Assembly: GCF_013185185.1 (NCBI RefSeq)
Contig: NZ_JAAZWE010000006.1
Span: 310,001-374,000, forward strand
Length of the DNA: 64,000 nt
DNA from: Saccharibacillus endophyticus
Lineage (GTDB): Bacteria; Bacillota; Bacilli; Paenibacillales; Paenibacillaceae
Reading direction: 5' to 3'
Numbering within the stretch: position 1 is the stretch's first letter; each line of letters opens with the position of its first letter. Position numbers and translations under genes: made by a program. The notes beneath the pieces were generated by a model that was not told the origin of the DNA, made no database searches, and saw only the letters and a program-made list of their open reading frames with translations. Positions 4,633 through 63,179 of the stretch are shown one piece after another.

Positions 4633-4752
4633 TGGGAGTGGGGGGCTGCGGGAGAAATTCGTTCAAGGCGCTGTCTCGCGCGGAAAACCTTTGGTTTTCC
4701 GCGCTCAAAGGCGTCTTTCACTGAATTTCTCCCTCCGCTTCTCGGACTCCCA
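4633..4752. repeat. Dispersed nested-palindrome element, copy 1
   Basis: 120-bp intergenic palindrome. Nested arms from outside in: TGGGAGT/ACTCCCA; GGGAGAAATTC/GAATTTCTCCC; AAGGCGC/GCGTCTT (one G-T pair); then the perfect hairpin CGCGGAAAACC-TTT-GGTTTTCCGCG. The strings TGTCTCGC and CTCAAAG stay unpaired between the inner stems. Same architecture as copies at 8806, 35479 and 56545. On the minus strand it lies 119 bases after the ABC ATPase stop and before the M20 start. Confidence 0.85.
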
Positions 4753-8751: not shown

Positions 8752-8778
8752 AAAAAAGAGCGAAAATTGGTTTCGCTC
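8752..8778 (-). terminator. Terminator downstream of the HD-GYP operon
   Basis: Hairpin GAGCGAAA/TTTCGCTC followed on the minus strand by TTTTTT. It ends the transcript of the signalling operon (last stop at 8999) after repeat copy 2. The remaining DNA to 8592 is AT-rich and should hold the GNAT operon promoter, which I could not place confidently. Confidence 0.8.
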
Positions 8779-8805
8779 AAAGGATTGAAAAAGTTACGTA
8801 GGCGG

Positions 8806-8938
8806 GGAAGCGAGAAGACTGCGAGAAAAATTCGTTCAATTCGCTGTCTCACTCGGAAAATAGATTGGATTTGAATAAGGAATTTTCCGAGTTCAAAGGC
8901 GTCTTGACCTGAATTTTTCTCTCCGTCTTCTCGCTTCC
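8806..8938. repeat. Dispersed nested-palindrome element, copy 2
   Basis: 133-bp copy. Outer 14-bp perfect arms GGAAGCGAGAAGAC/GTCTTCTCGCTTCC; then 11-bp arms GAGAAAAATTC/GAATTTTTCTC (two compensated changes relative to copy 1); apical arms ACTCGGAAAAT/ATTTTCCGAGT around a 20-base loop. TGTCTCAC and GTTCAAAGGCGT are conserved. It lies between the HD-GYP stop and its terminator, so it should be inside that mRNA. Confidence 0.85.
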
Positions 8939-8998
8939 AGTTACGTTTGGTTTTCTTGATACGTTGAGGCGAAAGCCAGCTTCCGCTTTACAGGATAA

Positions 8999-35478: not shown

Positions 35479-35631
35479 GAAGCTGGGGGGCTGCGGGGGA
35501 AATTGCCAGCGTATGCTTCCGAAGTGCATTTCTTCGAAATGCTTCACAAAACGCTGTCTCACGCAGAAAGCCTCCGGCTTTCCGCGTTCAAAGGCGTTTT
35601 TCACTGAATTTCCCTCTTCGCCTATTGCTTC
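35479..35631. repeat. Dispersed nested-palindrome element, copy 3 (expanded)
   Basis: 153 bp. Arms GAAGC/GCTTC; GGGAAATT/AATTTCCC; AAAACGC/GCGTTTT; apical GCAGAAAGCC-TCC-GGCTTTCCGC. TGTCTCAC and TTCAAAG conserved. Unlike other copies, its left side carries an extra hairpin (GAAGTGCATTTC/GAAATGCTTC, 35521-35545). On the minus strand it follows the phosphatase gene. The rest of the 35459-35785 gap holds nothing else I can support. Confidence 0.8.
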
Positions 35632-55454: not shown

Positions 55455-56532
55455 AACGTATAAAATCGGTATCGTCGGCTGCGGCGGCATTGCCAACGGC
55501 AAGCATCTTCCGAGCCTGAGCAAATTGAACAATGTGGAACTGGTTGCGTTTTGCGATCTGGTGCCGGAGCGCGCGGAAGAAGCCGCAGCCAAATACGGCA
55601 TCGAAGGCGCGAAAGTATACAGCGACTATACCGAATTACTGAAAGACGGTTCGATCGATATCGTGCACGTACTGACGCCGAACGAATCGCACGCACGCAT
55701 CTCGATCGCGGCCCTGGAATCCGACAAACACGTCATGTGCGAAAAGCCGATGGCCAAAACAGCAGCCGAAGCCCGTCAAATGGTCGAAGCGGCGAAAAAG
55801 TCCGGCAAAAAGCTGACCGTCGGCTACAATAACCGTTTCCGCCGCGACAGCCAGCATTTGAAAAAGATTTGCGAAGCGGGCACGCTCGGCAATATCTATT
55901 ACGCGAAAGCGCATGCGATTCGCCGCAGAGCCGTTCCGACATGGGGCGTATTCCTGGACGAAGAAAAGCAAGGCGGCGGCCCGTTGATCGATATCGGGAC
56001 TCACGCGCTCGATCTGACACTGTGGATGATGGACAACTACAAACCGAAAGTCGTACTGGGCACCAAATACCATGAGCTGTCTCAGCGCGAGAACGCAGCG
56101 AATGCTTGGGGACCCTGGGACCCGGAGAAATTCAAAGTGGAAGACTCCGCATTCGGCATGATCGTGATGGAAAACGGAGCCACCGTGGTGCTGGAATCGA
56201 GCTGGGCGATCAACTCGTTGGATGTGGACGAAGCCAAATGCAGCCTGAGCGGCAGCGAAGGCGGAGCGGACATGAAAGGCGGCCTGCGCATCAACGGCGA
56301 AGAGTTCGGCCGTCTGTATACCAAAGAAGTCGATTTGTCTTCCGGCGGCGTCGCGTTCTATGAAGGCAAAGCAGAAAGCGATTCCGATCTGGAGATGTAC
56401 CGTTGGATCGATGCCATTGAAAATGATCTGACGCCAACGGTGACGCCGGAGCAGGCTTGCGTGGTGTCGGAGATTCTCGAAGCGATTTATGAGTCGGCGC
56501 GGACGGGAAAAGCGGTGTACCTCAACGAGTGA
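55447..56532 (+). CDS. Gfo/Idh/MocA family oxidoreductase (second)
   Basis: 361 aa. Cofactor motif GIVGCGGIANGKHLPSL (~8-24), catalytic EKPMAKT (~99-105) and GGGPLIDIGTHALDLTLWMM (~177-196) with the active-site His. A more typical member than the first one at 53441. GAGGTG seven bases upstream. Last gene of the operon, followed by repeat copy 4 and a bidirectional terminator. Confidence 0.92.
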   Translation: MSKTYKIGIVGCGGIANGKHLPSLSKLNNVELVAFCDLVPERAEEAAAKYGIEGAKVYSDYTELLKDGSIDIVHVLTPNESHARISIAALESDKHVMCEKPMAKTAAEARQMVEAAKKSGKKLTVGYNNRFRRDSQHLKKICEAGTLGNIYYAKAHAIRRRAVPTWGVFLDEEKQGGGPLIDIGTHALDLTLWMMDNYKPKVVLGTKYHELSQRENAANAWGPWDPEKFKVEDSAFGMIVMENGATVVLESSWAINSLDVDEAKCSLSGSEGGADMKGGLRINGEEFGRLYTKEVDLSSGGVAFYEGKAESDSDLEMYRWIDAIENDLTPTVTPEQACVVSEILEAIYESARTGKAVYLNE

Positions 56533-56544
56533 AGAGCTTAAGGT

Positions 56545-56665
56545 GACGCTGCGGGAGAAATTCGCTTAAGACGCTGTCTCACTCGGAAAAGTCGATTGAA
56601 ATTTTTAGTTGAAGTTTTCCAAGTTCAAAGGCGTCTTTCGCTGAATTTCTCCCTCCGCTGGCGTC
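56545..56665. repeat. Dispersed nested-palindrome element, copy 4
   Basis: 121 bp. GACGC/GCGTC; GGGAGAAATTC/GAATTTCTCCC; AAGACGC/GCGTCTT; apical CTCGGAAAA/TTTTCCAAG with a longer AT-rich loop. TGTCTCAC and GTTCAAAG conserved. On the minus strand it lies past the pullulanase gene and its terminator. Confidence 0.85.
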
Positions 56666-56776
56666 TCGCTCGGAGGTAAAAGTAGGGAATGATGCATGGC
56701 GGCTTTTTGATTAAGCCGCCGTATATCTGATTTTTTGCGAGCATATGTTATGCTGCGGTCAAAAATTTGAATACAG

Positions 56777-56868: not shown

Positions 56869-59800
56869 TCAGATTCCTGCGCCGCGGTCGACGTCGCTTT
56901 CAGGAGCGTCCTCGGTTGGGGAAGAAGATTCCGGTTCGGCAGTATCGGTGTCGGACGGGGAGTTCGCGTCCTGCGTCGAAGACTCCGGCGAGGCCGTTTC
57001 GTCGCTTGGTTCGCCGGTGGAAGCTCGGTCGGCTTCCGGCGGAATTTCCTCCGCTTCCTTGTCGGCCCGCGCCGCTTCTTCGGCTGCGGCCCGTTCCGCG
57101 GCTTCCTGTTCCAGCTTCGCGAACTTTTCCTGTTCGAGCGGAATCGCGGATTCTTCCAGCGCTTCCGCCGAGACGCGGAATTCGCCGCTGCGAATACGGA
57201 TACGCACCCAATCCCCGGTGATTGCACCCAGATCGATATAACGGTCGGCCGCGATGTCTTTTTTCTCCCACTCCTCGTGTCGAACGATGAAACCTAGGCT
57301 CAGCACGTCCGGAGCCACTTCGAGCAACGCTTCGGCTTTATTTTCTCCGATATCGATGAAGTCCACTCTGCGGCTGCCGAATGAAGCGCCCCACATCCAT
57401 AGATTCCAGCCCGCGTAATCATGGTCTTCGCGTTCGTATTCCAGAATCAAGCGGCGCTGCTCGTATTCGCGAACCTTGAGCGCCAACTGCGCCTGCACGC
57501 CGTCGCCGAAAACGGAGATCACCGCTCGGCCGGGACGGATACCCGTTACCCTTCCTGCCTGGTTAACCGTCGCGATGCCCACGTCGCTCGAGCGCCATTC
57601 GAGGCGCGAAGCCGACATCGGGTTGCCGAACGGATCTTTGGGCTGGGCTTGAAGCTTCAAGCTGCGTCCGACGTACAGGCGCTGCACGCCTTCTTCCATC
57701 GTGATGCCGATCTGATGCACCGTTCGGCGCTCGATCAGAATGGCCGTGCTGCTGCGCATATCGCCGCATACCGCGGTAATGAGCGCGCGTCCCATTCCGA
57801 TCGTCCAAGCCGATCCGTCGCGCCGAATAATGATCTTTTCCGGGTCGGACGAATGGTAGGACACTTCGGCTTCCGGCATCCGCCGACCGCGCTGATCGCG
57901 CACGGTCGCGCGCAAGAACAGCTTTTCGCCGGGCTGAACGACTCCCGGCATGTTTTCCCACTCCAGCAGCGCCGGGTCCGGTTTGTAGTCATCCTCTTCG
58001 TCGTAGAGCACCATGCTCGAAAGCGCGGGCACATGCACGAAGTCGGAAGCTTCTCCCAGCGCCTTCGTGCCGGCCCGGCGATGGTCGACCACGATCTTCC
58101 ATGGACGGCCGCGCGGGGGCAGTTCGATCGTTTGCTCCGATTCCGACGCGTTATGCACGACGACGATCGTTTTCCACAGATCGCCCCCTGCATGGTCGTT
58201 CAGCATAAAACCGACGACACCGCCGTGCATGCGGAACACATCCATATGCTTTTCGATATCGCCGCGCGTTTTGAGCCGGAAAGCGCGGTGCGAACGTCTA
58301 AGCTCGATCAGGCCGCGTATATAATCCGTCACGCCGTAGAAACGGTCTTTGTTGTTCCAACGGATCGCATTGATGACGTCCGGGCTGCGGTAACTGTTAT
58401 GGTCGCCGAACTTGCTGCGCAGCAGTTCGTCGCCGGCACTGATGAACGGCACGCCTTGCGACGTCAGCACAAGCCCGTACGCCAACAGCTGCCTTTTCAC
58501 CAAATGATGCTCCAAAGGGTCGATATCGTTTAGCATGACGTAAGGATCACTCGCTTCAACCGCTTGGGCCGCTGTCAGTCCCCGCGAAGGCTGCCCGTCA
58601 TGGAAAGACAAGAAGCCTGTTTCTTCCCAGTTGCCCCGAGATTTGATGAGCTTGTCCCACAAAATCAGGTTATCGTGCGCCGTAACGTAATTGACGCTTT
58701 CCGCGGGTTCGGCCGCGAAATCGTGCACCGCTCCGCGAAGCCCCTGCGCGATCTCGCCTTCTTTTCCCGGCGCGCCGCTCACGAAGCCCGTTCCCCAACC
58801 GTCACCGTCGCCTTTGAGCGCATTGCGGAAGTTGTCGTTGAAGACCGCGAAGCCTCCGCCCTGCTGCGCACCCTTGAGCGTCAACTCGCGCAGCGGAGAA
58901 TCCAGCGCCGTCCACGGCTCGCCGTAGATCAGGATGGTCGGATCGACCTTTTCGTGCAGCACCGACGCGACCGTTCGCATCGTCGTCGTGTCGATCAGTC
59001 CCATCAAGTCGAAGCGAAAGCCGTCGACGTGATACTCTTCCGCCCAATACAGCAGCGAATCGAGGATGTATTTGCGCACCATCGGACGTTCGGTAGCCAG
59101 CTCGTTGCCGACGCCGGAGCCGTTGCTGAGCTGACCGTACTTGTTGAAGCGGTAAAAGTAACCCGGCACGACCGGATCGAATGGTCCGTCCTCCACCGAA
59201 AACGTATGGTTGAACACGACGTCCACCACGACCCGGATGCCGCGGGCGTGCAGTGCCTGAACAAGCTTTTTCAACTCGCGAATGCGCGATTCCGGGTTAT
59301 GCGGGTCCGAGGCATACGAACCTTCGGGCACGTTATAATTTTGCGGGTCATAGCCCCAGTTGTAAGATTCGGGCGTCACGTCGCATTCGTTGACCGTGCA
59401 AAAATCGTACACCGGCAGCAGATGGACGTGCGTAATACCCAGCTCTTCCAAATGGTCGATTCCGACCTTGCGCCCTTCCTTCGTGCGAATGCCGCTTTCG
59501 GTAAACGCCAAATACTGACCCGAATGATTCATTCTCGCATCTTCCGAAGAGGAAAAATCACGCACGTGGAGCTCGTAAACGACCGAGTCCACGGCATGCC
59601 TGAGCGGCGGGCGAATGTCGTTTTCCCATCCTTCGGGATCGGTGCGCTTCATGTTGACGATAGCTCCGCGCTGACCGTTTGCTGAAGCGGCTTTAGCGTA
59701 AGGATCGACCACGTAACGGCTTTTCTCATGCTCGCCGATCTTGTAGGTAATATGATACAGGTAGTAATGGCCTTCCAGATCGCCGGGCACGACGATGCTC

Positions 59801-62705: not shown

Positions 62706-62961
62706 CGTCTACTTCGCTCCATTTCGCTGTATTGCCGAACATTCGGCGTATTAGAACTTTTACTTGTTCGGGAATTTTCCGCGCCTTTAGCTTAAAGCAG
62801 CCTATTTGGCGTGTCAATGTTCCTCACAATATTTTTCGTAAAATTCAAACTTTTGTTGACAACACGCAGGCGCATCCCTTAATAATTAGGATAAAGCATT
62901 TGATCCGCATTTGGCAAAAAACGAACGTTGCATCATATTCGCATAGGCGAATGAAAGCACA

Positions 62962-63179
62962 GGGAGAGAGTACCGGACGCTTACGCGATCGCGGGTGCCG
63001 CCGAAGGAGTAAACCGAATGCGACCGCGCTCGGTGAATCTCTCAGGCAAAAGGACCTTTGCCGGACGCCACTCTGGAGAGCATCCGCGCGTGAATCAGGA
63101 CAAAACCTGACACGTAGGCGGATCACCCAAGGGGAAACCTGCTTCAAAGCGGGGTAACTCTCAGGTATCAAGGACAGAG
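62962..63179 (+). ncRNA. Tandem glycine riboswitch
   Basis: Two consecutive aptamers. The first starts with GGGAGAG, with GCCGAAGGAG and ATCTCTCAGGCAAAAGGAC. The second has CACCCAAGGGGAAA and ACTCTCAGGTATCAAGGAC, ending GGACAGAG. These are the hallmark strings of gcvT-type riboswitches. Located 116 bases before gcvT, so glycine should turn on the cleavage operon. Confidence 0.95.

Follow-up and report, generated by a model that had tools for sequence, protein, structure and literature searches.

The four palindromes found in the window (the whole stretch of 64,000 nucleotides that was analysed) are members of a family of about 200 copies of small, gene-less mobile DNA elements. Very probably these are MITEs of Saccharibacillus that insert at intrinsic terminators and were mobilised in trans by a DDE transposase of the IS1182 family.

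All four palindromes occur at the positions given in the earlier note and follow one plan, as it had claimed: a GGGAGAAATTC-type stem, an AAGACGC/GCGTCTT stem and a variable apical hairpin, with the near-constant strands TGTCTC and TCAAAG between the stems in every copy. The common core of the family consists of the middle stem, these two strands and the apical hairpin. Pairs 4-5 of the middle stem are often unpaired (TT, CT, TC), and the apical hairpin takes the form of a 24-nt type, a longer and imperfect one, or an almost perfect palindrome whose sequence is unrelated. At least two kinds of arms can be recognised, A (...TCCTRTTCG...) and B (TGTCGAGAAAGTTACG...GGAAGCGAGAAGAC), plus others. 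Extra hairpins are optional and lie 5' or 3' of the middle stem. The arm, core and extra-hairpin modules are combined in many ways. The features in the window are as follows.

4634..4751, plus strand: copy 1, 'other' arms, short apical hairpin (read directly)
4634-4639/4746-4751, plus strand: outer stem of copy 1
4650-4660/4723-4733, plus strand: arm of copy 1
4665-4671/4711-4717, plus strand: middle stem of copy 1
4672-4677 and 4705-4710, plus strand: internal-loop strands of copy 1, TGTCTC and TCAAAG, respectively
4678-4704, plus strand: apical hairpin of copy 1
8758..8778, no strand: left flanking hairpin of copy 2, GAGCGAAA-ATTGG-TTTCGCTC, with an A-run outside it at 8752-8757; left copy of a duplicated terminator
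8778..8966, plus strand: copy 2, B-type MITE including its terminal repeats (from the sequence)
about 8783-8795 and about 8949-8966: left and right terminal repeats of copy 2, GATTGAAAAAGT and GGTTTTCTTGATACGTTG, respectively
8969..8986, no strand: right flanking hairpin of copy 2, GCGAAAGC-CA-GCTTCCGC; this is the right-hand terminator copy, which has diverged
35479..35631, plus strand: copy 3, A-type arms CCTATTCG...CGAATAAG, short apical hairpin (from the sequence and the family alignment)
56545..56665, plus strand: copy 4, 'other' arms, long apical hairpin (from the sequence and the gene calls)
56698..56720, no strand: terminator-like hairpin to the right of copy 4, GGCGGCTT-TTTGATT-AAGCCGCC (read directly)

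The interval 8806-8938, initially described as the second palindrome, is the inner part of copy 2. The left and right arms of the hairpins flanking this copy are 6/7 common, and the T-run of the right hairpin is gone. Copy 3 carries an extra 5' hairpin module, GAAGTGCATTTCTTCGAAATGCTTC. Copy 4 starts just past the stop codon of a plus-strand gene ending at 56532, and the convergent gene ends at 56869. All four sites are also occupied at the orthologous positions in S. sacchari. The extra hairpins on either side of the middle stem have a TTTCTTCGAAA tip in common, in copies from both the window genome (G000) and S. sacchari (G007), e.g. at 35479-35631. A related core, class C, CGATCGCTGTYTCA or GTTCGCTGTCTCA ... 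TTCAAAGGCGA, occurs with quite different arms (L238, L233, L234, L039, L040, L098), and is present also in species having few standard copies. Apart from the palindromes, the window contains tandem glycine riboswitch aptamers at 62951-63179 on the plus strand (Rfam RF00504, 63.5 and 35.8 bits).

A search for further copies with the pattern GCTGTCTCRC-N18-48-TCAAAGGC produced 193 strict matches in the window genome and 216 in S. sacchari, whereas the reversed control of the pattern had 0 matches, so that the numbers greatly exceed chance expectation. The 15-mer TTCAAAGGCGTCTTT with at most 2 mismatches has 235 matches versus 18 in the control. Other members of the genus have 0-5 strict copies, these counts being lower bounds, and 84 genomes from the same family and order but from other genera had no strict copy. 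Within the genomes searched, the palindrome family is confined to Saccharibacillus. The elements are about 120-250 nt long, lack a transposase gene, and are numerous and dispersed. The copies considered below are a pattern-gathered sample of about 226 out of more than 400, in which very diverged copies are under-represented; the window genome contributes about 120 of its at least 193 copies.

The genomic context was established for 203 copies using a simple codon-usage gene caller. Almost all of them (196/203) follow the 3' end of one gene or more. There is strong avoidance of divergent gaps, which hold 7 of the 203 copies but make up 125 of the 537 gaps with a length of 120 nt or more (p = 3e-12). 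Relative to the genes, 76 copies are in the '--' orientation, 44 in the '++' orientation, and 76 lie between convergent genes, so that '--' exceeds '++' for same-strand neighbour genes (p = 0.004). The minus-strand gene ends reported earlier at each window copy were recovered for copies 1, 2 and 4, with matches to ABC-transporter, HD-domain and pullulanase proteins, respectively, but the 'phosphatase' at copy 3 was not confirmed.

Evidence on the insertion target comes from the B-type copies, the best-preserved type, including copy 2 of the window. These carry terminal repeats CAGNNTGTCGAGAAAGT; the consensus end is TGTCGAGAAAGT, from which the two ends of copy 2 differ by 4 and 4 mismatches. 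This consensus is seen within 2 mismatches at both ends of 26/216 copies, and never in shuffled flanks. Each B-type copy is bracketed, at a fixed distance, by two locus-specific hairpins, alike on the left and on the right, in the order A-run, hairpin, element, hairpin, T-run, where both hairpins are the locus's own terminator. Among 85 copies, 26 have left and right hairpin arms that match within the locus; when arms from different loci are paired, the mean is 2.2 and the maximum 7. Of 17 clear copies, 15 have an A-run on the outer side of the left hairpin and 15 a T-run on the outer side of the right one; on the inner sides the numbers are 0 and 1. This polarity fits a bidirectional terminator as the target, of which the hairpin alone is duplicated.

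The same duplication can be followed by comparing species. The region that follows ychF has one terminator in most other species, but a terminator, an element and a second terminator in the window genome and S. sacchari. The terminator downstream of the DAHP synthase gene is single in G002, G003, G009, G010 and G016, and was struck separately in other lineages: by B-type and class C elements in G000/G007, by class C in G014, and by an A-type element in G012. For the B-type, the target-site duplication consists of a locus-specific terminator hairpin, which is single at the empty sites. Copies with A-type and other arms mostly have no hairpin duplicates, which are decayed or absent in most A-type copies. 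Among 43 copies of the window genome with an orthologous region in S. sacchari, 35 sites are filled in both species, and no insertion polymorphism between these two genomes was seen in the 43 regions. The sites that had appeared empty in one of them look like internal deletions or have swapped cores, and are not pre-insertion sites; true empty sites were found in more distant Saccharibacillus species.

An IS1182-type search identified an element of about 1.57 kb in S. sacchari and its relatives, whose ends CAGNNTGTCGAGAAAC are like the B-type ends, so that the B-type MITEs and an autonomous IS have their terminal inverted repeats in common. The transposase belongs to the IS1182 family (NF033551, 502 bits at a cut-off of 270; also PF13751 and PF05598), these matches being scored on two ORFs joined by a -1 frameshift. 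Each of the IS copies L244, L245 and L249 lies between two identical copies of a terminator hairpin (31 bp, 21 bp and 20 bp, respectively), whereas the two hairpins beside L243 are unlike. In the window genome, the site of L249 is still in its pre-insertion state, with a single hairpin; the orthologous site of L245 was not found in this genome. S. sacchari has a second IS1182 type (L250), which also duplicates a hairpin, a different one. In another genus (G019), with IS ends CAGGCTGTCGAGAAAGT, 4/4 IS copies are hairpin-duplicating, again with different hairpins, which gives exact hairpin duplicates around 8 IS copies in all. No hairpin duplication was seen at IS1182 elements of several other sampled genera of the family (e.g. 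G020, G058, G109), and thus it is a trait of a subgroup of IS1182 rather than of all its members.

No intact IS1182 copy was found in the window genome. Thus mobility in this genome is likely to be historical, and the palindromes seem to have been retained from an earlier period of activity. The only trace of an IS1182 transposase there is a 65-aa domain remnant (G000:C10:976155-976292). In the four Saccharibacillus copies L249, L245, L244 and L243, and in L320 of G019, an AAAAAAG run divides the transposase between two overlapping frames, which suggests programmed -1 frameshifting. A different IS1182-like IS, with a transposase of 499-524 aa and ends GAGGCTGCTGAAAAA, was found in G012 (L247) and G007 (L251) beside or within terminator-like palindromes, L247 adjoining an A-type copy. 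These two were considered as partners of the A-type elements and rejected, as their ends have no clear match to the A-type.

The following mechanism may be proposed. The transposase of the IS with terminal inverted repeats CAG-NN-TGTCGAGAAA, which match those of the MITEs, would act on the latter in trans and would recognise terminator stem-loops, presumably as hairpins (cruciforms). Joining would occur at both feet of the stem-loop, and after repair the insert would have a complete hairpin to its left and another to its right. Since the outer A-run and T-run would not be moved, neither of two convergent genes should lose its functional terminator, and this would make the insertion nearly harmless. 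Each transcript should run through the element, which would thus join both 3' UTRs. The position of the palindromes in 3' UTRs, correctly noticed at the outset, is accounted for by insertion into terminators.

The same mechanism and partner transposase may serve the A-type and other arms, that is, window copies 1, 3 and 4. They are linked to the IS1182 transposase because they share the core and because one A-type copy (L239, at the DAHP synthase terminator of G012) lies between matching hairpins and has a TGTTGAGAA-like end. This copy is also what counts against a two-transposase scheme, in which the IS1182 transposase would mobilise only the B-type, A-type and other arms would depend on a different transposase, and the core would have spread by gene conversion or nested insertion. 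We consider such a scheme rather unlikely. In its favour, the A-type ends, GGAAaNTCCTRTTCG, do not contain a clear TGTCGAGAAAGT end and differ beyond GAAAGT, and the many combinations of modules would be natural under it. Moreover, at two orthologous sites of S. sacchari and the window genome (L154/L049, L153/L197) the same conserved arms enclose different cores; therefore cores have been exchanged among copies, probably by gene conversion.

A less probable explanation, and on balance an unlikely one, is that the palindromes are structured RNAs of 3' UTRs (an RNase target, a stabiliser or an sRNA) that were spread by transposition and are now kept for their RNA function, with the loops TGTCTC/TCAAAG as the active part. 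The compensatory changes on which it draws are real in every stem. Counted over distinct arm sequences as cells changed on both sides, they number 119 in the apical stem, 40 in the middle stem and 111 in the outer stem, versus 31, 11 and 28 after shuffling. The excess is about four-fold in all three stems, and none of 200 shuffles reached the observed values. This shows that pairing is maintained, but not necessarily an RNA function, since the shuffles keep relatedness, and template switching can also make the two arms of a palindrome in DNA alike. The conserved unpaired strands, the location at 3' ends and the retention of most copies at orthologous sites also agree with an RNA role, and it should be noted that transposition alone gives no explanation for the conserved core and internal loops.

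The evidence on the strand is mixed. The prevalence of '--' copies and that of A.C over G.T mismatches (60:36, p = 0.018) weakly favour the minus strand. However, part of the A.C excess comes from one inherited subtype, both orientations are common, and there is no consistent strand asymmetry of the mismatches: the apical and outer stems lean towards A.C, and the middle stem towards G.T. The suggestion that two apical mismatches become G-U pairs on the minus strand applies to the short apical subtype, whereas the middle stem leans the opposite way. No Rfam 15 family matches the element at the gathering score, and relaxed thresholds yielded only sub-threshold chance matches. None of the outcomes that the earlier note named as refuting its view (absence of other copies, lack of covariation, identity to a known family) was observed. 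Of the 3'-UTR RNA element considered in that note, the position remains, but a dedicated strand-specific RNA is not supported. That transposition can produce covarying 3'-UTR hairpins by the hundreds is a warning for covariation-based searches for non-coding RNAs.

Returning to insertion of MITEs at terminators by an IS1182-family transposase, a more general but tentative proposal, to which we give somewhat less than an even chance, is that transposases of this subgroup read the folded (cruciform) terminator and not its sequence. Cutting at both feet would then lead to duplication of whole hairpins of variable length, and the nested palindromic MITEs would themselves be recognised partly by shape. 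If true, the latter would explain the conserved internal loops and the compensatory changes in the stems. Insertion in a terminator with its duplication, so that both neighbour genes should keep one, would be a route to harmless spread to high copy number.

REP and BIME elements are intergenic palindromes of 20-40 nt at the 3' ends of genes, with a RAYT (Y1 transposase) partner. The Saccharibacillus elements are likewise intergenic palindromes at gene 3' ends, but differ from REP/BIME in size, ends, transposase class and junctions. The earlier label of a REP-like mobile palindrome is thus supported as regards mobility, whereas the type would be a MITE of an IS1182-type DDE transposase. A REP/BIME-like family mobilised by an HUH (RAYT) transposase via single-stranded hairpin DNA is highly improbable: the intergenic location, palindromic structure, high copy number and restriction to few species would suit it, but not the length of 120-200 nt with nested stems, the terminal inverted repeats common to IS with DDE transposases, or the duplication of the target hairpin, which is unexpected for HUH transposition.

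The BOX, RUP and SPRITE repeats of Streptococcus pneumoniae are described as modular or terminator-like intergenic repeats of high copy number that insert near or into one another (PMC3049150, PMC10969869), and to that extent they resemble the present family. The passages compared do not mention a duplication of hairpins, and no sequence relation to the present family is shown. Closer in the type of transposase are the MITEs of ISMac2, an IS1182-family element of Methanosarcina acetivorans, which are 160 and 169 bp long, have 14 and 7 copies, and are flanked by repeats of 0-4 bp (PMC3852290). These are also short, non-autonomous and assigned to an IS1182-family partner. Unlike them, the Saccharibacillus elements have about 200 copies and are fully palindromic, modular, terminator-targeted and hairpin-duplicating.

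The closest parallel is provided by IS1272 and TnSha1 of Staphylococcus, members of the IS1182 family, whose targets are stem-loops without sequence consensus, often transcription terminators (PMC5678879, PMC4923244). Common features are the transposase family, the targeting of stem-loops, and repeated hits on the same terminator. However, IS1272 replaces or deletes the target stem-loop and causes no target duplication (PMC5678879, PMC4923244), whereas the Saccharibacillus elements, instead of replacing the stem-loop, duplicate the whole hairpin. Such duplication figures as pathway b, purely hypothetical, in the model of PMC5678879, and a comparison covering Rfam and the open-licence literature turned up no earlier account of a duplicated terminator hairpin. 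The present data, with a pre-insertion site, provide sequence evidence for this previously only hypothetical 'stem-loop duplication' pathway of IS1182.
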